Assembly (NCBI GenBank): GCA_023489485.1
Contig: JAMDCU010000080.1
Coordinates: forward strand, 935 to 53,016
Direction: 5' to 3'
Origin: Chloroflexota bacterium
GTDB taxonomy: Bacteria; Chloroflexota; Anaerolineae; UBA4142
DNA: 52,082 nt
Each line of letters starts with the position of its first letter. Positions within the stretch are counted from its first letter, which is position 1. The notes under the pieces are model-generated. The model was not told the DNA's origin, searched no databases, and saw nothing but the letters and a program-made list of their open reading frames with translations. Below, piece after piece: positions 24,856 to 37,585 of this stretch. A program made the position numbers and the translations under genes.

Positions 24856-25440
24856 CTACACCATCCTTCGCGGCCGATACTGAATCGCCTCGGCGAGGTG
24901 CGGCGTCTCGATCTGCTCGCACTCTGCCAGGTCCGCAATCGTCCGCGCCAGCTTCAAAATGCGATGAAATGCCCGGGCGCTCAGCTGCATCTGCTGCATG
25001 GCCGCCTTCAACAGACTCCGCCCCGTCGCATCGATCCCACAATGCTGCCGCACCTCCGACGGCCCCATGTCCCCATTGCACTGCAGACCTGTCCCCCCAA
25101 ACCGCCGCCGCTGCCGCTCGCGCGCCTTTTCCACCCGCTCTCGAATCTTGGCTGAACTCTCCCCCAGACGGTCCCCCGCCAGCTTTTCGTAATCTACCCG
25201 CGGTACTTCAATATGAATATCGATCCGGTCGAGGAGCGGCCCACTGATCCGTTTCTGATAGCGCAGAACGGTGCCGAGGCTACAGGTGCACTCTTTGACC
25301 GGGTCGCCATAATAGCCGCACGGACAGGGATTGGCAGCGGCCACGAGCATGAAATTGGCCGGGAAGGTGAGCGTCCCCTGGGCTCGACTAATGGTCACCA
25401 CGCGATCTTCCAACAGCGTACTTTGGTCACTACTTCTATT
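24856..25440 (-). pseudogene. comM/yifB Mg-chelatase-like ATPase, 5'-truncated, copy 3 (longest)
   Basis: [80 protein letters not shown]...LSARAFHRILKLARTIADLAECEQIETPHLAEAIQYRPRR. Confidence 0.85.
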
Positions 25441-25599
25441 GTATCGACAAGAACATAATAACAGCAATCGCTGAATTCGTACAAACATGTAAGCCATATC
25501 AAGCGACTCGAGTTTGTACCCATTAACGTCCGGATCACGCGAAGAGGGATCGCAGATAGTGGGAACCTGTTATCTCTCTTCGCGCCGCCTCCTACAAGC

Positions 25600-25624
25600 G
25601 CGGGTTCGAATCCCGTCGCTCCCG
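25600..25624 (+). pseudogene. tRNA 3'-end remnant (T-arm + acceptor 3' strand)
   Basis: GCGGG-TTCGAAT-CCCGT-CGCTCCCG. Confidence 0.45.
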
Positions 25625-25732: not shown

Positions 25733-27253
25733 CTATTGGCTCTCGAGTTTGGGCGACGATAACTTGATGCGAACCTGGGTCTTGAGATTTCGCAGACGAT
25801 ACCCAGGATTGATGCCCCTATCATCCTCCTTAGCCCACCCGAGCCCCAAGATAACCCGGGAAAGGTCGACGGATGTTTGGATCTCGATCAGTTCTCGTTC
25901 TTGAAGTGTGAGTCGAACAATCGCCGTCTGCAGCAGCCTTTTCTGTTCGATCATATTCCTAGCTCCGTGCCAGTTCGCCGCGAAATGGGCTATCTGGCCC
26001 AATTCTCGCAACTTTAATTCTTCTTCTGCCGATAGCCGCTTGCCTCGCTTGACCCTGACCCGGTACTGTTTTCTCCAATCTTCCGGCCAATGGAACTGAG
26101 AGAAAAATGCCACGACTTGGTTCTCGATTTCCTCCGCATTGATGCTCGGTTGGTGACACAAGTCGCCGTCGTGACCGAGCGGCGTGGTGCAGTAGTACCG
26201 CCGCTCCGCATGTCGGAAGAGCCCAACCATCCGTCGGCCACACTGCGAACAATAAAGAAAGCCAGACAGCGGATAGTTCCGCCGAGTTCTCAAGGCACTA
26301 GAGCGTGGCCGGTTGCCCAAGAGTTGACGCACCCACTGACATCGCTCATACGACTCGCGGCTAACCAGCGCAGGATGGACGCCTTGCGCCCAGAAGGTCA
26401 CGGCATTCCGTTTGAGTCTCTTTCCTCGAGCAGTCTTTCCATAATCGGGCAGTTGACCGGTGTAGAAGGGACGGCTCAGTATCTCGCGCACGGTGTCGCG
26501 ATGGAGCGGCTGAGGTCCGCCGCGACTGACCCAGCGTTTGGATCGAAAATGGCAGAGGGATCCATCCGGGAGGTGCAATTCGTAAGCGTTGAGTTTGGCC
26601 GCGAGCGATGCATCACTGAAAATGCCTTGTTCGTACCATTCATAAGCAAGCCGAACGGCGTGGCTTTCGATGGGATGAGCGATGAGGTGATTTCGACTGG
26701 AACAATCGGGATGGCCGAAATTGGGGCAATAGTCCTTGCCATTGACATCGGTGCAGTGGGAGCACAAGCCATTGCAATAGCCGAGGGGGATGCTGCCGTT
26801 CCAGAAACCTTTGCGGGCGCGGGCTTGTTTACCTCGGATGGTTTCTGCGCGCAGTTTATCGATGAAGATTTCAGCGAGTGTGCCGAGGACGGCGAGGACC
26901 AATTTCCCCCACGGGGTAGTAAAATCAAGGTTTTCGGTGATAGAAATAAAGGTGACTTGGTGTTGGTGCAAGTGATGAAGAGCGGCGAGCAAGCCGCTCA
27001 GGTCGCGGTAAAAGCGGTCAATGGCATGCACAATGACGACATCAAAGTCGTGCTGTTCAGAACGCGCCATTAAAGTCTGGAGCGCGGGACGAGCAGAGAG
27101 CGTACCAGAAAGACCGGCATCACAGAAGATCTCGCCCAGCGACCAGCCTTTGGCGCGGACGAAATCGGTGATGAGAGTGCGCTGAGCGTCGAGACTGTGG
27201 CCCGTCTCGATTTGCATTTCGGACGAGACGCGAATGTAACCTACGGCTCTCAT
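25733..27253 (-). CDS. Large serine recombinase (resolvase + recombinase + zinc ribbon)
   Basis: MRAVGYIRVSSEMQIETGHSLDAQRTLITDFVRAKGW...DVVIVHAIDRFYRDL...FLYCSQCGRRMVG. Confidence 0.95.
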   Translation of the reverse strand: MRAVGYIRVSSEMQIETGHSLDAQRTLITDFVRAKGWSLGEIFCDAGLSGTLSARPALQTLMARSEQHDFDVVIVHAIDRFYRDLSGLLAALHHLHQHQVTFISITENLDFTTPWGKLVLAVLGTLAEIFIDKLRAETIRGKQARARKGFWNGSIPLGYCNGLCSHCTDVNGKDYCPNFGHPDCSSRNHLIAHPIESHAVRLAYEWYEQGIFSDASLAAKLNAYELHLPDGSLCHFRSKRWVSRGGPQPLHRDTVREILSRPFYTGQLPDYGKTARGKRLKRNAVTFWAQGVHPALVSRESYERCQWVRQLLGNRPRSSALRTRRNYPLSGFLYCSQCGRRMVGLFRHAERRYYCTTPLGHDGDLCHQPSINAEEIENQVVAFFSQFHWPEDWRKQYRVRVKRGKRLSAEEELKLRELGQIAHFAANWHGARNMIEQKRLLQTAIVRLTLQERELIEIQTSVDLSRVILGLGWAKEDDRGINPGYRLRNLKTQVRIKLSSPKLESQ

Positions 27254-27461
27254 TAGGAATACCTCCACAGACAGAAGATTCGTGCGGACTAGCTGCACGT
27301 AAAGGGATGATAACCATTTGGCGGCAGTAATTGTCTGTGAGCGAATAGCGACCTGAGATGGATGAGAGGCAACAAGCGTTTGAAACACAAGAGCAAAGGT
27401 GCTATATTTCAGTGCCGAGCCTGGATTCGGTCTTGGCTGAGCCCCTCTGGTAAGGAGATAC

Positions 27462-27911
27462 ATGACCACGAAGAAATCCAAGACGGCATCGAGGAGACTG
27501 CGGAAAGGCACAAGTCTAGCCGCTCGAAAGTCAGGCGGGCGAAGCTTACAAACGGTGGTCGGCCCCGAGGTGTATCAGACTTGGGTGAGCATGTTGCGTA
27601 TATTGGCCCCCGACGGGCGGACACACCGACTGGCACCTCTCCTAGCCGCCATGCTGCAATATGCTGCCTCCATCGCTGAAATTACTGCGGACGATGAGAT
27701 CAAAGAGCGCTCCCTGATCCAGTCCCTCCGGGACTCATCCCAGGTCTCCGACCCTTCAGAGGTAAGAGAGTTGCTTCACGATGCCGTGACGCAACTTTTC
27801 CAGGATGCGCGGGTGGAGTTTTGGCGGATGAGCGCTCGAGGGCAATCTTATAGCATCGCAGACGATGCATATTCCGAGTATGTTCACTGGTTTGATTTGC
27901 CATGGGAATGA
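27462..27911 (+). CDS. Hypothetical protein
   Basis: 149 aa ORF overlapping the next ORF. Confidence 0.5.
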   Translation: MTTKKSKTASRRLRKGTSLAARKSGGRSLQTVVGPEVYQTWVSMLRILAPDGRTHRLAPLLAAMLQYAASIAEITADDEIKERSLIQSLRDSSQVSDPSEVRELLHDAVTQLFQDARVEFWRMSARGQSYSIADDAYSEYVHWFDLPWE

Positions 27912-28312: not shown

Positions 28313-29185
28313 ATGCCTCAGCAGGATCAGATTCACTCCGAAGGACGAAGAAACATGAAGCTTCCTATCGAAGAGGCTCGGCTGTTCTTCAAGCTCTACT
28401 TTGCCTTGCTTGCGTTTGCGAACCGTGAGTTGAAGGTCGTCGAAGACGTTTCGAAGGCAGGCGATATTGGGAAGGTCAGTGTCGAGCAGACGCACAAGAT
28501 CCGCGAGGCGCTCTTCAAACATCCCCAATGGCTAGACCGTTTTGCTGAGGAAAACCCCGAAGGCTTTTCACCGGAGGAATTGACGATCATTCGGAGCTGG
28601 AAGCACCGGGTCATGGGTGATTTCTACCTGATGCGCTATCTGAAAAAGTACGGCGTCTTTATGTCCTCAAGAGAGAGCAGCCATCTGTACGGGGTCCTCG
28701 GCTTGTACGATCCCTTCGAGACCGTGATCGGCGGTCAGCCGCTCCCCGTCGCGCTGCGAACGACGCTGCTGCCCTTCAAGGGCCACATCATCTGGGACGG
28801 CATCGTCACCACCTATACGGTCCTGTTCGGACCCGGGTTCCGGGCGGACCTGAATGCCACATACCGGAGGCTGAAGGAGAGAGAAGAGATTATCGAGCAG
28901 TTGGTCAATCCAGAAAGGAAGCCGGAGACGCGCACCAGTCTCAAGTCACACGCCGGCAAGCCTCCGCCTGATTGGAAGCCGACCATTGCAGACATTGTTG
29001 CACAGACGGACAAGATGCGGCGCGCCGACACCCCGGACCAAACTGCGGCCCTCGCCTTGCTGCGCGCAGCCGCACAGGCTGCCTTGGCAGCTTTTGATGA
29101 AACCAGCGAGACGGGAAATGAGCTCCGGCAGGTGCGACGGGCACTGACTCGACTCGAGAACCTGCGCTATGAAGAGGATTTCTAG
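28313..29185 (+). CDS. Hypothetical protein
   Basis: 290 aa; GGQPLPVALRTTLLPFKGHIIWDGIVTTYTV. Confidence 0.6.
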   Translation: MPQQDQIHSEGRRNMKLPIEEARLFFKLYFALLAFANRELKVVEDVSKAGDIGKVSVEQTHKIREALFKHPQWLDRFAEENPEGFSPEELTIIRSWKHRVMGDFYLMRYLKKYGVFMSSRESSHLYGVLGLYDPFETVIGGQPLPVALRTTLLPFKGHIIWDGIVTTYTVLFGPGFRADLNATYRRLKEREEIIEQLVNPERKPETRTSLKSHAGKPPPDWKPTIADIVAQTDKMRRADTPDQTAALALLRAAAQAALAAFDETSETGNELRQVRRALTRLENLRYEEDF

Positions 29186-29749: not shown

Positions 29750-31998
29750 TCACATGTTGTCTAGGGCAAGCTGGTTGGAAGGGGCCTTCTCCGACGTCGT
29801 AATCTCGTAACCGATAGCCTTGTAACCCGTCCGCCGTCTGGCATACATCCTAGCCAGCACCGGAACGTCCAGGTCGGCATAATCATAGATTAGGACTTCC
29901 TTTTTGGCATCACTCAACCGGTGCAGCCGTCCGGCGTATTGAGTCAGCGTCCCCCGCCACGAGATCGGCAGAGCCAGAAAGAGGGTGTCCAACCGCGCAT
30001 CGTCAAACCCCTCCCCCAAATACCGTCCGGTGGCCACAATTACGCGTGGCCGGTCCGCCGGAACACCCGCGATTTGCTCGGCTAGTTTCCTCCGTTGCTT
30101 CTTGCCCATCCCGCCTGCCATGACAAAGAGGTTCGCCACGCGTGGTGCGAGCAGAGCCGCCAGAGCCTCCATGTGTTCCCGTCGCTCGGTCAGCAGCACA
30201 GGGACGCGTTTCGCCTGAACGGTGGCGACCACATCGTCGACAATCAGTTGATTCCGCGCGTGATCTCCGGCAAGCATGGCATAAAGCTCTTGAACAGATT
30301 GGAACATTCCAGTTTGTTGGTCCGTGGACATCTGGAAGTGGGTGGGGCGAACAATGACCCTGTGTCTAAAGGGTCGTTTTTCCGCTTCCGTGCGATCGCT
30401 CACCCGATAGCGCACCGGCCCACATTGCATGAAAATGATCGGATGGTGACCGTCTTTCCGGACTAGAGTCGCGGAGAGTCCCAAGACATACGTTGCCTTG
30501 CTCTGTCTGATGACCTGCTCAATGCTTACAGCAGAGATATGATGGCATTCGTCTACGATTACGTGGCCGTACTCACCCACAACATCATCGACAATGCCCC
30601 TCCGACCGAGACTTTGAACCATAGCCACATCGATGAGGCCAGTCGCTCTGTGCTTGCCACCTCCGATTTGGCCGATATCCTTCGGACAAGGGCCGAGGAA
30701 TTGGCTCAGTGTCTCCACCCACTGGTTAAGCAATTGCCGGCGGTGGACAATGACGAGGGTATTCACCCGGCGATGAGCGATCAAGTACGCAGCCACCACT
30801 GTCTTGCCAAAGGCGGTCGAAGCGGCCAAGATACCAGTGTCGTGCTTCAACAACTCCTCTGCGGCTTTAACTTGTTCTGGGCGCAAAGTCCCATGAAACT
30901 GGAGCTCGATGGGTGTCCCGGCAACTCGCTGATCGGTGAGCTTCACCCTGATGCTCAACGATTGGAACAGACCGAGCAAGTCATCCAGGCAACCGCGCGG
31001 GAGGCCCAGATGTTTGGGAAAATCCTCGCAGCAGCTGATGACGCGTGGCTTGCCGAAAGTGGAGAGGCGCATTGCCTGCGCTTGATAGAACTCGGGGTTC
31101 TGAAAAGCGGCGAGACGGATCAGACGGTTACGAAGCGAGGGAGCAAGCTCCGATTTGGGAACATAGATCTGGTTGCCTAGCACCAAGTCAATCTGCTCAG
31201 GCAGCGGACCGACGATGAGCCGATCTGGGCTTCGCCGTGACGGCGGGGCTACCCACGGCTGATCGGCATCTTCGTCCGAGACCGGGAGTGGGATTCCCTG
31301 CAAGTCATCCTGCATCCCTAGATCACCCGCTGCCTCCTCAACTTCGCGACGGCTCATTCGGCGGACCGACGAGAGAAAAGCCCATTGGTCCGAATAGGGG
31401 ACCAGGTTATCATCCACGAACAAGCTGTTACCGCTGTCGCGCGGCTTCTTTTGGAGCGGCAGGGCGATCAGATTCCCGAAGCCGCCTCTGGGAAGCGTAT
31501 CCTGACTGGGGAAAAAGCGATCATAAGAGTCCAGGCCAATCTCAGGGCGACGCTCCATGGTCTGAGTCAGTAGTAAAGAACCCATCTTGCGTGCCGTCGT
31601 CGCCAAGACTGGCTCTGAAAAAAAGATCCAGATATGTTCCCCATTTCCCGATCGTGACCGCTCCAAAGCAATCGGGACATTGAAATGCCGGCAAGTCTCC
31701 AAGAAGGCGCGTGCGTCTTCTTGCCACGAAGCCTTGTCAAAGTCGGCGGCCAAGAACCAACACGTCTCGTCGGGCAGCATGGGATAAACGCCAATGACAA
31801 AATCGCGGTTTGATCTGTCCTGAGGATCCCGACCCAAAAGATGGTTTCTCAGGACCTTATCGGTTAGGGGCAGAAACTCGCGATGGGAACAATCTTCGCA
31901 CCGAATCCTGGGCTTTTCGCAGGTACCTCTCGCCCACTCATTCCGGCAGGCGGGTTGATAGCCGCTCTTGCCGGTCATGAGACTCTCAAACCTTCTGG
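29750..31998 (-). pseudogene. TOTE-type AEP primase + superfamily II helicase fusion, 3' part (5' part lies beyond the IS)
   Basis: Zn-like CRNEWARGTCEKPRIRCEDC; DFVIGVYPMLPDETCWFLAADFDKASWQEDARAFLETCRHFNVPIALERSRSGNGEHIWIFF; helicase TAFGKTVVAAYLIAHR, VDECHHIS, GLSATL. Confidence 0.75.
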
Positions 31999-32019
31999 GG
32001 TAGACATCCTCGCGGCCCC

Positions 32020-33449
32020 ATACGCATCAAGCTAAGGATTGGCATTGCGGGTCGAGCCACAGTTGAAAGGCACTGAGTTTGTTCTTGCGTTTGTTGACGC
32101 GACATCCCACGGTCAGACCGCGGGCTATGATCTCGAGCACTTGACGGAGGGCCGCCGCCCCTTGCGTGAAAGCGCTCGCCAACTCGAGCGCCTGCGAGCG
32201 AATCACTTGCCCGGCTTTGACCAGGCTGCGGGCGGGATCCCGCCAGCCGCGCGTGAGCAGGATCCAGTGTTGCAGGATCAAGCCGAGCAGCTTGGCATAG
32301 ATCTCACACAACTGCCGCCAGGGTTTCTCGCTGCGCGACTCGTCCAGATGCCCTTGCGATTTCCACAATTTGAACAGGAGTTCAATCTGCCAGCGCAGGT
32401 GCAACAGCACGCTCACCTCTTGAGGACTCGCCTGCTCGACCGAGAGATTGGTCAGCACGATCGTCCAGCCCGCCAGCCTCAGTCGTTCCGGACTGACCGA
32501 CTGCGCTTTGCGGCGCGCCTCCTTACGCAGCGTCGGCCGACGCTGGCGCGCCACGGCGGCAGGCACGCGCCAGGCGACCAGGCGAGCCGCGAGGTGCTCC
32601 TCCCGCCCGACCTGGACGGGACAGTCGACCCATGGCGTGCGCCGCTGGGCCAAGAAACGCACGAGATCCAGGGCACGCCCGCGGCCGTCATAGAGTTGCG
32701 TGCGCGCCATGCGCCGCGTGATCCAGAAGCACCCATCCCGACTCCGTTGGGCCAGGACCGCCAGATCAAAGTAGCCCAGGTCCGCCACGCGCAACGACCC
32801 GGTGGGCAGAGCGAGATCCTGCGTGGGACTGGTGCGGTCACTCGTGCGTCCCGCTTGCAGCACCAGTCCGCACAGCGCCCCGCGCCGGAATTCCCAGCAC
32901 ACTTGGATTTTGAGGGCCGCCAGTCCATCCGTGGGCGCATGTCCTCCGCCGCTGCCCGCCCAGAGCGGGGCCAGCTCGGGCGGGAGCGCGAGCTGCGTGC
33001 TGTCGAGCAGGTACACGCCGGTGAAGCGTGCGAGGAGCGGCAGGACGGCCGGTTCACTCACGAGGACGTGACGGAGCGCCTCCCGCAAGCACCCTTCCAG
33101 CAGGTGGGCTCCCGGCTCGGTGAAGCGTTGGTCCAAACCCTGAGCACTGATCGCCACGCCCACACTGGCGGCAGTCTGGGCCAAGTTCTCCAGCGTGGCG
33201 TCGGGATTCGCCAGCCAGCCGAAGGTGAGCGTTTGCACAAAGGCGGCTCCCGTCAGCTTCGACTGGCGCTTCACAAAGCCTGTGCGACGCGCCCACCGGT
33301 TCGGAACCTTCTCCAAGACCGCTTGCAGGGCGGGCGGCAGATATGGTAAAGTACTCATCGGAAGCTCTTTCTAGGCACGATTGAGTTCGGCAACTCCTAT
33401 CATGCCTGAAGAGCTTCCCTTTGTCACTACCCCTTAGCTTGATGCGCAT
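32020..33449. mobile_element. IS4-like insertion sequence, 1430 bp, ~18-bp TIRs, 22-bp target duplication
   Basis: TIR ATACGCATCAAGCTAAGG / CCTTAGCTTGATGCGCAT; GGGTAGACATCCTCGCGGCCCC at 31998-32019 and 33450-33471. Confidence 0.9.
32027..33358 (-). CDS. IS4-family transposase
   Basis: 443 aa; ..TGVYLLDSTQLALPPEL.., ..VADLGYFDLAVLAQRSRDGCFWITRR.., ..LLHLRWQIELLFKLWKSQGHLDESRS.. Confidence 0.9.
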   Translation of the reverse strand: MSTLPYLPPALQAVLEKVPNRWARRTGFVKRQSKLTGAAFVQTLTFGWLANPDATLENLAQTAASVGVAISAQGLDQRFTEPGAHLLEGCLREALRHVLVSEPAVLPLLARFTGVYLLDSTQLALPPELAPLWAGSGGGHAPTDGLAALKIQVCWEFRRGALCGLVLQAGRTSDRTSPTQDLALPTGSLRVADLGYFDLAVLAQRSRDGCFWITRRMARTQLYDGRGRALDLVRFLAQRRTPWVDCPVQVGREEHLAARLVAWRVPAAVARQRRPTLRKEARRKAQSVSPERLRLAGWTIVLTNLSVEQASPQEVSVLLHLRWQIELLFKLWKSQGHLDESRSEKPWRQLCEIYAKLLGLILQHWILLTRGWRDPARSLVKAGQVIRSQALELASAFTQGAAALRQVLEIIARGLTVGCRVNKRKNKLSAFQLWLDPQCQSLA

Positions 33450-33841
33450 GGGTAGACATCCTCGCGGCCCCTAAACAGGCTGCGGAAGAGGCTGACTTTC
33501 GCTTCTTGCGAAGACTGGTTGGTCACGGATGCCAATGGGATGGATCGCGGTGGCGTTCCCTGGACTTGGGACGACGCTCGTTCGCGCCTTAGTTCAGCAA
33601 TCTGCGCAAGGAGTTCCGCCCGACGCACGGTGAGCTTTGTCAATTCGGCTTCTGCTTCTGCAAGCCGTCGATCAACACTTGCACCGCACTCCGTCTCCGC
33701 TGCGTTTCGGGAATCTTCGACCTCAGGGGTCCTCGAGCTTCGGGGACTAGTGTGAACTTGGTGCAGTGCAGATGCTTCATCCGGGTTCCGCATAGACACC
33801 TCAAGAGACAGCAGCAAGCATGAAAGCTTGGCCTTCGGCAT
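33450..33841 (-). pseudogene. 5' part of the IS-interrupted TOTE-type primase-helicase gene (coiled coil + LFRSLFRGREDVYP)
   Basis: Frame continues into 31998-29750 when IS + one duplication are removed (..LFRGREDVYP|RRFESLMTGKSGYQP..). Confidence 0.75.
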
Positions 33842-34046
33842 TGTATCATGGTCCCCTGATCAGCACAATCAAGTTCCAATCCGGGATGATCTTTGATTTG
33901 ATCGGGCAGCGAGCTGAAGACGGGATCACTGCAACCGCAGAAGGGTGCTTGGCCTTGGAATGCAGCGGATCATTTTCTATTTGACAGGATTCCCGCACGG
34001 GTACGTAATCTCGGCATCGAATCAAGAAGAGTTGAGGCACACTCCA

Positions 34047-35735
34047 ATGTTACCTGTTAATCTGGCGGAGTTGATTGCCAGTGGCGAGACATTCACCGTC
34101 GAATTCAAAGGCGAAGAACGCGCGCCCCTCTCCGATTCTGATTTGATCGAAGCCGCCGTGTGCCTGGCGAATGGACAAGGCGGCTACTTGCTGGTCGGCA
34201 TCGAAGATGATGGGCGGGTGACCGGTGTGCGCCCGCGTCATGGCACGACGACCGATCCCCTGCGCGTCCATGCCTTGATTCAGAACAGAACGGTTCCCGC
34301 ATTGAGTCCCCGGGTTCATCTCCAAGATTATGGAGGCAGGCCCGTCCTGCTAATCGAGGTGCCGCGCTCGGATCGCCCGGTCGGCACCTCGGCGGGCAAA
34401 TTCGTGCGGCGCGCGATGGGCGCGGATGGTAAGCCGACCTGCCTGCCATTCTTTCATCACGAGATGGTCAGCCGCGAGGCAACGTTCGGTCGGCTCGACT
34501 ATACGGCTCTGCCGGTAGCGGGCGCAACGTGGGATGATCTCGACCCGCTTGAGTTCTATCGGTTGAAGCAGGCGATCCGTGATCGGCACGGCGATGAAAC
34601 ACTGCTCGAATTGAGCGACCTGGAAATCGCCTAGGCGCTGGGCTTGGTGGAAGCGAATGGGGAAGCGCGCCATCCCACGGTGGCGGGATTACTCTTGTTG
34701 GGGAGAGAGGAATCCCTTCGCGAGCATTTGCCAACGCATGAGGTCGCCTTTCAGGTGCTCCGGCACGGTCAGGTCGAGGTGAACGATTTCTTCCGGGCGC
34801 CGCTGGTCAAGATCAGCGAGATACTCTACGAACGCTTTCGCGCGCGGGTGCAAGAACAAGAACTGATGCTCGGGATGCTGCGAGTAGGAATCCCGGATTA
34901 TGCGTCCTCGGCGTTTCGGGAGGCGGTCCACAATGCGCTGATCCACCGTGATTATTCCCGACTGGGCGCAGTGCATATTCAATGGCATGATGATCACATC
35001 GAAATCAGTAGCCCGGGGGGCTTTGTCGAAGGCGTGCGTCTCGATAATTTACTGACCGCCCCGCCCACTCCACGCAACCCGCGGCTGGCAGACGCCTTCA
35101 AGCGCGTCGGACTCGTCGAGCGGACCGGGCGGGGGATTGATACCATTTTCGAAGGGCAGCTGCGCAATGGACGTCCCGCTCCCGATTACAGTCGCTCGAC
35201 GGATGCAGCAGTCGTGGTGGTCTTGCCAGGCGGTGCGGCGAGTTTGAAATTCGCTCGGTTCGTCATTGAACAGGAGCAAGCCGGACGGCGTTTGAGCTTG
35301 GACGACCTGTTGATCTTGAACGAGATCTACCGCGAACGACGCATTGACTTGGCGCGAGCCATGGCCTTGACCCAAAAGCCAGCAACTCCCGTCCGCGCTA
35401 GCTTGGAGCGCCTGGTCGAATTGGGATTGATCGAAGCGCGTGGGGAAAAGAGAGGACGCGTTTACCATTTCTCGCCAGCAGTCTATCGTGCCCTGGGGAT
35501 GTCTTCGGCCTACGTCCGGACGCGCGGGTTTGAGCCCATTCAAGTTGAAGCGATGGTGAGTCAATTCGTTCAGGCGCATGGCAAAATTACTCGTGGCGAG
35601 GCCGCTGAATTGTGCCATTTGTCTGAACCGCAGGCGTATCGTCTGCTCAAAGGGTTAGCTGAGCGCGGGTTGCTAAGACGGGTTGGCAGGGGACGCAAAT
35701 CGCACTACGAACGAGCAGAAGGAACGCACGAATGA
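34047..35735 (+). pseudogene. Schlafen/AlbA_2-type ATP-binding protein (RecG-like regulator), interrupted by one in-frame TAG
   Basis: GETFTVEFKGEER..AAVCLANGQGGYLLVGIEDDGRVTG..LEIA*ALGLVEANGEARHPTVAGLLLLG..FREAVHNALIHRDYSRLGAVHIQWHDDHIEISSPGGF; TAG at 34632-34634. Confidence 0.85.
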
Positions 35736-36074: not shown

Positions 36075-37585
36075 TTGAAGTTTAGACTATGGGGCAACCC
36101 ACCCTTGCGGTAGATTGCCCCATGGGGTAAAGTTCCTGGCAGCCAACCGAGGAACTGAAACCCCATGCAGTTTAACATACTTGATCAATTTCGGCACGAT
36201 GTCTATCTGTGCTTTCGGAAAGCCCAGGACGCCCTGTTTGAGACCTGCGATGCGCTGCTGACGGAACCGACGGCCCGCACCTTTGCGGAACTCTCATTAT
36301 CGCCGCGGTTCACCCGCCAATGGCCCAGCCTCTACGCCGCCTTGAAGGACGGATGCATTGATCAGGCGGCTTTGCAGTGGGTCTTCGCTCAGTATGCACC
36401 GATGCCTTCCACAGGACAACGTCTGCTCTTGGGCGTCGATGGCACCGGCATCGCCCGTCCCGAGTCGCCCACGGCCAAGGACCGCACCTATCTCTACGTC
36501 CATAATTTGCCGAAGAGTGCGGTGCCGGTGACGATCGGCTGGAGCTTTTCCTCGCTGGTCGTGTTACTGGAAACGACCAGCAGTTGGACCTATGTGCTGG
36601 ACAACCAGCGCATTCCCAGTCAGACCACGGCGGCACAGCTGGCCGCCGATCAACTGGGCCAGGTGGTGCCGCATTTGCCAGTGCGAGCCGTGCTGGTGGC
36701 CGATCGCTACTATGGCAGCGCCAAATTCGTGGCGGCGAGTGCCATGGTCTCATGCGACAAATTACTGCGCATCCCAAGTAATCGCGTCTTCTACCGTCCG
36801 GCCCCACGCCGCCGCCCACGACGGCGGGGAGCCCCGAAGAAGGACGGGCACCCGTTCAAATGCAAGGACGCACGCACCTGGGGCAAACCGAGTGCCACCT
36901 GGCAGGGACTCGATGAACACGGGCATGCCGTCGAAGTGGCAGCCTGGTCGGGTCTCCATTACAAACAATGCCGTGCCGTGAGCCTGGCGGTGCTCCGCGT
37001 GATCCGTCAGGGCGCCACGGGCAAGAAACGCGATCCGCGCGTCAGTTGGTTTGTCTGGATCGGTGGGGAGCTGATCGCGCTCGACCAAGTCTGGAAGACG
37101 TATCGGCGGCGCTATGGGCACGATCATGGCTTCCGCTACGATAAACAGGATTTGCTTTGGTTGGAGCCGCACGTCCGCACGCCGGAACAGTTTCAACGCT
37201 GGACCGACGTGGTCGCCGCGGGTCGGAATCAACTGGTCTTAGCCCGACCCGAAGCGGAGGTCCAGCGTCAACCGTGGGAGTCCCAGTCCCGTCCGGTCAC
37301 GCCGCGCCAAGCGCGCCGCAGCATGGGACGAATTCTGGCTGCCCTGGGAACTCCCGCCCAGCGGCCCCAACCCCGCGGGAAATCACCCGGCCGCCGACCG
37401 GGTGCCACCATCCAGCCTGCGCCACGGTACAAGGTCGTGTACAAAGGCAAGCCGTGCAAGACGCGCCCTCGGAAACGCGCGTAAATTCAGCTTCGGCTGC
37501 TGCCTAGTGGCGTTTGGGTTTGCCGCACAGTTCGTTGATCGATGTGCAGGCTTCTTAAGGTCCACGGAAATAGTCTAAACTTCAA
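36075..37585. mobile_element. Complete IS (IS701-like), 1511 bp, 16-bp perfect TIRs, 7-bp TSD
   Basis: TTGAAGTTTAGACTAT / ATAGTCTAAACTTCAA; TCTATGT at 36068-36074 and 37586-37592. Confidence 0.85.
36165..37484 (+). CDS. IS701-like DDE transposase
   Basis: LLLGVDGTGIARPESPTAKDRTYLYV..VPVTIGWSFSSLVVL..AVLVADRYYGSAKF. Confidence 0.85.
   Translation: MQFNILDQFRHDVYLCFRKAQDALFETCDALLTEPTARTFAELSLSPRFTRQWPSLYAALKDGCIDQAALQWVFAQYAPMPSTGQRLLLGVDGTGIARPESPTAKDRTYLYVHNLPKSAVPVTIGWSFSSLVVLLETTSSWTYVLDNQRIPSQTTAAQLAADQLGQVVPHLPVRAVLVADRYYGSAKFVAASAMVSCDKLLRIPSNRVFYRPAPRRRPRRRGAPKKDGHPFKCKDARTWGKPSATWQGLDEHGHAVEVAAWSGLHYKQCRAVSLAVLRVIRQGATGKKRDPRVSWFVWIGGELIALDQVWKTYRRRYGHDHGFRYDKQDLLWLEPHVRTPEQFQRWTDVVAAGRNQLVLARPEAEVQRQPWESQSRPVTPRQARRSMGRILAALGTPAQRPQPRGKSPGRRPGATIQPAPRYKVVYKGKPCKTRPRKRA

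Follow-up and report, generated by a model that had tools for sequence, protein, structure and literature searches.

In the stretch of Chloroflexota DNA analyzed here (52,082 nucleotides, hereafter the window), an insertion sequence lies between two minus-strand reading frames, which raises the question of whether these frames are the separated halves of one gene and what kind of element came between them. Our answer, which we hold with high confidence, is that a gene for an AEP-TOTE primase-helicase was split by a recent IS4-type insertion that duplicated 20 bp of its target. The novelty of this locus lies in the insertion sequence and not in the disrupted gene.

Judged from its sequence, the gene belongs to a known category, an AEP-TOTE primase (PF22548) joined to a superfamily 2 helicase in the CAPP-helicase architecture. 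Its 3' part (29750-31998, minus strand) encodes a four-Cys motif, the AEP primase domain (with DFD and GNGEH motifs) and the SF2 helicase (AFGKT, DECHH and QYAGRLHR), while its 5' part (33471-33841, minus strand) encodes a predicted long N-terminal helix and the first conserved AEP-TOTE segment (LFRSLF..., running into the duplicated codons). In profile searches, the split gene matched AEP-TOTE (Pfam PF22548) with 300 bits against a curated cut-off of 27 (E 1.3e-89); the downstream piece covers profile positions 25-229 (E 1.3e-89) and the upstream piece positions 2-18 (E 0.0034, scoring below the curated cut-off). The C-terminal half contains the fused helicase (ResIII, E 2e-22; DEAD, E 5.8e-11), and the relatives of solved structure identified by sequence are MpCAPP (7nqd, E 1.7e-9) and XPBII (6p4f, E 1.4e-18). 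The PADLOC model for CRISPR-associated PrimPol likewise matched both the window protein (E 4.4e-80) and its homolog L003 (E 5.9e-90). The TOTE-type primase and SFII helicase proposed in the first-pass annotation are thus borne out by the PF22548, ResIII/DEAD and XPBII matches, as are two smaller proposals: the four N-terminal Cys residues of its Zn-like motif do not vary in an eight-sequence alignment, and its coiled coil corresponds to a long N-terminal helix in a structure model of the homolog L153, a model of moderate confidence (pLDDT 71, pTM 0.47).

Before the insertion, the gene product would have combined an AEP-TOTE primase-polymerase with an XPB-like SF2 helicase. This architecture occurs mostly on mobile elements and in some cases beside CRISPR-cas. 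Among plasmids, relatives are present in 272 records, and in 91 of these the match extends over at least 80% of the query. It is probably a mobile-element or defence gene, and its role in the host may have been the replication or defence of a mobile element. The third type of class CAPP_A, the CAPP-helicases, shares the order of an AEP domain followed by a helicase (PMC8211822), whereas an insertion sequence interrupts the copy in the window, and no CRISPR-cas partner is seen among the neighbors checked: none of the six neighboring proteins is a clear Cas protein, and one of them has weak winged-helix matches only.

Several features of the surrounding DNA are recorded here in their own right. 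An AlbA_2 + HATPase_c_4 gene at 33945-35735 is interrupted by a TAG in frame (34632-34634), and its counterpart in genome G005 (L160) is a single 562-aa reading frame, 86-88% identical over the two parts. On the other side, a C-terminal fragment of a ComM-like (Mg_chelatase) sequence (24856-25497), a sequence resembling a tRNA 3' end (25600-25622) and a gene for a large serine recombinase (25733-27511) adjoin one another in an arrangement that resembles the border of an integrated element; contigs C42 and C135 carry more fragments of this ComM-like sequence. The interval 28313-29185 encodes a 290-aa protein with no match in Pfam, PADLOC, NCBIfam or PHROGs, homologs of which (approximately 60% identical) are found near the primase-helicase gene in genomes G002 (L159) and G012 (L161). 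A second transposase gene (DDE_5, 36165-37484) also adjoins the region.

That the two frames belong together is evident from a scripted join of 29750-33841 (minus strand), in which the insertion sequence was removed and one copy of the flanking repeat was kept. The joined sequence has 2640 bases, a number divisible by three, and stays open from its first codon to its stop, giving 879 codons, so the frame is restorable in the way that had been proposed. The N-terminal start of the AEP domain shares a frame with the remainder only once the insertion sequence is left out, and in relatives it is continuous. A single tblastn HSP spans the join in each of four uninterrupted relatives at 67-74% identity (L003 and L004 are full length; L006 ends early and L007 meets a contig end). 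At the insertion point, these relatives read LFRGR(E/D)DVY(P/S)(R/K)RF, and the duplicated codons are present once in their DNA. The first-pass annotation had suggested looking for an intact ortholog in sister strains; uninterrupted relatives were found at this distance, and none within the source genus.

An opposing reading would place the insertion sequence between genes, with the primase-helicase gene naturally beginning at MTGKSGYQP and the upstream reading frame unrelated to it. An ATG at 31978 does open the 3' part, with a frame of 742 codons, as this reading would have it. However, close relatives have R or K in place of the M of MTGKSGYQP, so this ATG is not a conserved start, and the single HSPs that run through the join, the match of the upstream piece to the beginning of the AEP-TOTE profile and the retention of the LFRGR segment in seven more distant homologs on IMG/VR contigs (48-61% identity) all argue against it. 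Homologs beginning at MTGKSGYQP without the upstream segment were sought among the uninterrupted relatives, including the distant IMG/VR ones, and not found. We consequently give almost no credence to a natural start at this position and regard the upstream LFRGREDVYP segment as part of the gene, as had been claimed.

The insertion itself is marked by an exact 22-bp direct repeat, GGGTAGACATCCTCGCGGCCCC, at 31998-32019 and 33450-33471. The repeat copies are separated by 1430 bp, and the terminal inverted repeats match at 17 of 18 positions. Because the group to which this element belongs has CAT...ATG ends, its likeliest boundaries are 32019-33450 (1432 bp, minus strand), which leaves a target-site duplication of 20 bp, with its left copy at 31999-32018, a sequence that is single in uninterrupted relatives, and its right copy at 33451-33470. 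The two additional bases of the 22-bp reading are explained by the element's own terminal C and G, which fit as well. The 22-bp repeat noted previously is therefore exact, but as a duplication it includes one base of the element at each end. With exact direct repeats, an intact element and uninterrupted relatives that can be aligned through the join, disruption of the gene by an insertion sequence is well founded.

The element encodes an intact transposase of 443 aa (32027-33358, minus strand) that matches DDE_Tnp_1 (E 2e-19) and the IS4 family transposase profile NF033592 (E 2.2e-54; 184.8 bits versus a cut-off of 115). Its residues D119, D193 and E326 fit the IS4 spacing D(60-110)D(100-150)E, while its Y(2)R(3)E(6)K signature is incomplete, as L319 occupies the Y position and R322, E326 and K333 are present. 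No solved structure matches the transposase by sequence, and the 3.12-Mb draft assembly (71% complete, 179 contigs) contains one copy of the element.

For an IS4-type element, the length of the duplication is unusual, a point passed over in the first-pass annotation. IS4 elements duplicate 7-13 bp of target, about one helical turn (PMC2266710), whereas the element in the window has duplicated 20 bp. The IS4 subgroups IS231 and ISH8 resemble it in transposase family (NF033592), DDE spacing and CAT ends, but they generate 10-12 bp and 10 bp, respectively (PMC2266710), compared to the 19-22 bp found here, and the window element lacks the Y of YREK. Members of the IS1634 family likewise lack the full YREK motif, and two of them produce long duplications; those of IS1634/IS1549, however, range from 8 to 514 bp (PMC2266710), while elements of the window type cluster at 19-22 bp. 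Furthermore, the window transposase scores far under the cut-off of profile NF033559 (19.5 bits versus 100). Long duplications, approximately 24-29 bp in one subgroup, are also made by the IS1202 family, the transposase of which belongs to a different family. Among the open-licence papers searched, we found no earlier report of 20-bp duplications by IS4 elements.

To place the window element among its kin, relatives were gathered from named genomes, from 400 genomes of the phylum and from further copies in six genomes, and their duplications were measured with the element ends anchored, repeated flanks removed and two 6-bp values set aside as chance-level. The lengths fall into two classes, with none at 14-18 bp: 35 distinct insertions, some of which represent the same element several times within a genome and hence not all phylogenetically independent, have exact duplications of 19-22 bp (20 bp in 23 cases), versus 17 with 10-13 bp. 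A further 20-bp duplication is found on a viral contig (L211). The long class occurs mostly in Chloroflexota and Planctomycetota, and its elements (1413-1464 bp) encode transposases 34-50% identical to that of the window, whereas the short class consists nearly entirely of more distant IS4 relatives, most of them elements of 1497-1638 bp with transposases 25-37% identical to that of the window. The exceptions in the short class are L079 (11 bp, element of 1442 bp) and L131 (13 bp, element of 1426 bp, 41% identical), and the latter sits within the long-duplication part of the transposase tree. On this tree, duplication class requires two changes, compared to 8.9 for shuffled labels (none of 500 shuffles as low), and thus the long class appears to be nearly one group. 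As for the protein feature responsible, loss of the YREK tyrosine was considered as a cause of the long duplications and rejected, since several long-duplication members retain the Y; no difference in DDE spacing is evident between the short and long groups.

The targets of these elements mostly start with GG(G) and end with (C)CC, and those of most surveyed elements resemble in this respect the IS231A target, GGG(N)5CCC. Complementarity between paired target positions reaches 43%, versus 26.5% in shuffles (none of 2000 as high), an excess that is partly the GGG/CCC ends themselves, and many target sites are imperfect palindromes, some of them strong. The window target was also considered as a stable hairpin, a candidate that was rejected because it folds worse than the average shuffle. 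Given that many targets are imperfect palindromes and that in some genomes the site lies in a dispersed repeat (the G430 target belongs to one that is also found empty elsewhere in that genome), the 20-bp repeats might have been tandem or palindromic repeats that preceded the insertion, or sequence belonging to the element ends, and not target duplications. Two uninterrupted sites make this very improbable. The window site has one copy in its relatives, and the site of the Herpetosiphon element L054 (genome G204) is uninterrupted in G173 of the same genus, where a single 19-bp copy aligns without gaps across the insertion point. In addition, among the copies of one element, the repeat sequence differs at each target and its length is nearly constant. 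Due to these two empty sites and the changing repeat sequences at nearly constant length, the 19-22 bp is taken as a property of the transposition reaction.

Three observations on individual sites are recorded separately. On either side of the long-duplication element L070, the target copies are in inverted and not in direct orientation, and at G430:C5:288651-290137 two inverted target copies stand at the spacing of an insertion sequence. Moreover, the flanks of the two Herpetosiphon insertions L054 and L049 match many dispersed repeats of approximately 100-200 bp at other places in the Herpetosiphon-genus genomes searched (G130, G138, G173, G204 and G365).

Based upon these features, a sequence of events can be proposed for the window. 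A cut-and-paste IS4-type element entered the gene close to the beginning of the AEP domain, in a target bounded by GGG...CCC, and 20 bp of this target were duplicated. The insertion appears to be recent, as had been suggested: no difference separates the two repeats, the transposase gene still has an intact frame, and the protein of the window differs at 3 of 205 invariant columns, values that fit a young event. The other nine homologs differ at 3 to 12 of these columns, and the window copy, the insertion sequence aside, shows no decay at the sequence level, its count being among the lowest of the ten. GNGEH in place of GNGGH was rejected as a mark of decay, since the position varies among G, A and E in homologs. 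As the assembly is an incomplete draft, the insertion may be polymorphic and may exist in only part of the population.

In this organism, the full-length function would presumably have been abolished, leaving at best a truncated product. Conceivably, the split gene could still work if transcription were to read through from the transposase and a shortened primase-helicase were made from the ATG at 31978. The remnant holds all of the catalytic motifs and is co-oriented with the transposase gene, 48 bp away, while a promoter-like site precedes the transposase gene. No terminator-like site was found in the gap separating the two, so read-through is possible. Against a working remnant, the promoter matches by consensus only, the ATG is not conserved, and the L153 model indicates, with moderate confidence, that the protein would be without two helices, the N-terminal one and the conserved one that follows it, and without most of a conserved strand. 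We consider continued function unlikely and favor inactivation of the gene.

The gene disruption alone is an ordinary case of an insertion sequence breaking a mobile-element or defence-like gene, and the inactivation of cas genes by insertion sequences has published precedent, as indicated in PMC10359306. The element group matters more, as duplication length reports the spacing of two strand-transfer events. The simplest reading of 19-22 bp is a stagger of two helical turns, in which the transposase would join the element ends to target phosphodiesters about two turns apart and not about one. On balance, we lean toward the view that an IS4-related group, mostly in Chloroflexota and Planctomycetota, transposes with this approximately two-turn stagger into sites that are bounded by GGG...CCC and often palindromic. 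Such a geometry has not been described for IS4 transposases, and the split primase-helicase gene would be a clear example of it. The step from approximately 10 to approximately 20 bp inside a single transposase family, which the tree separates almost cleanly, makes the protein feature that sets the spacing testable, and it gives annotators a reason to seek 20-bp duplications in these phyla.
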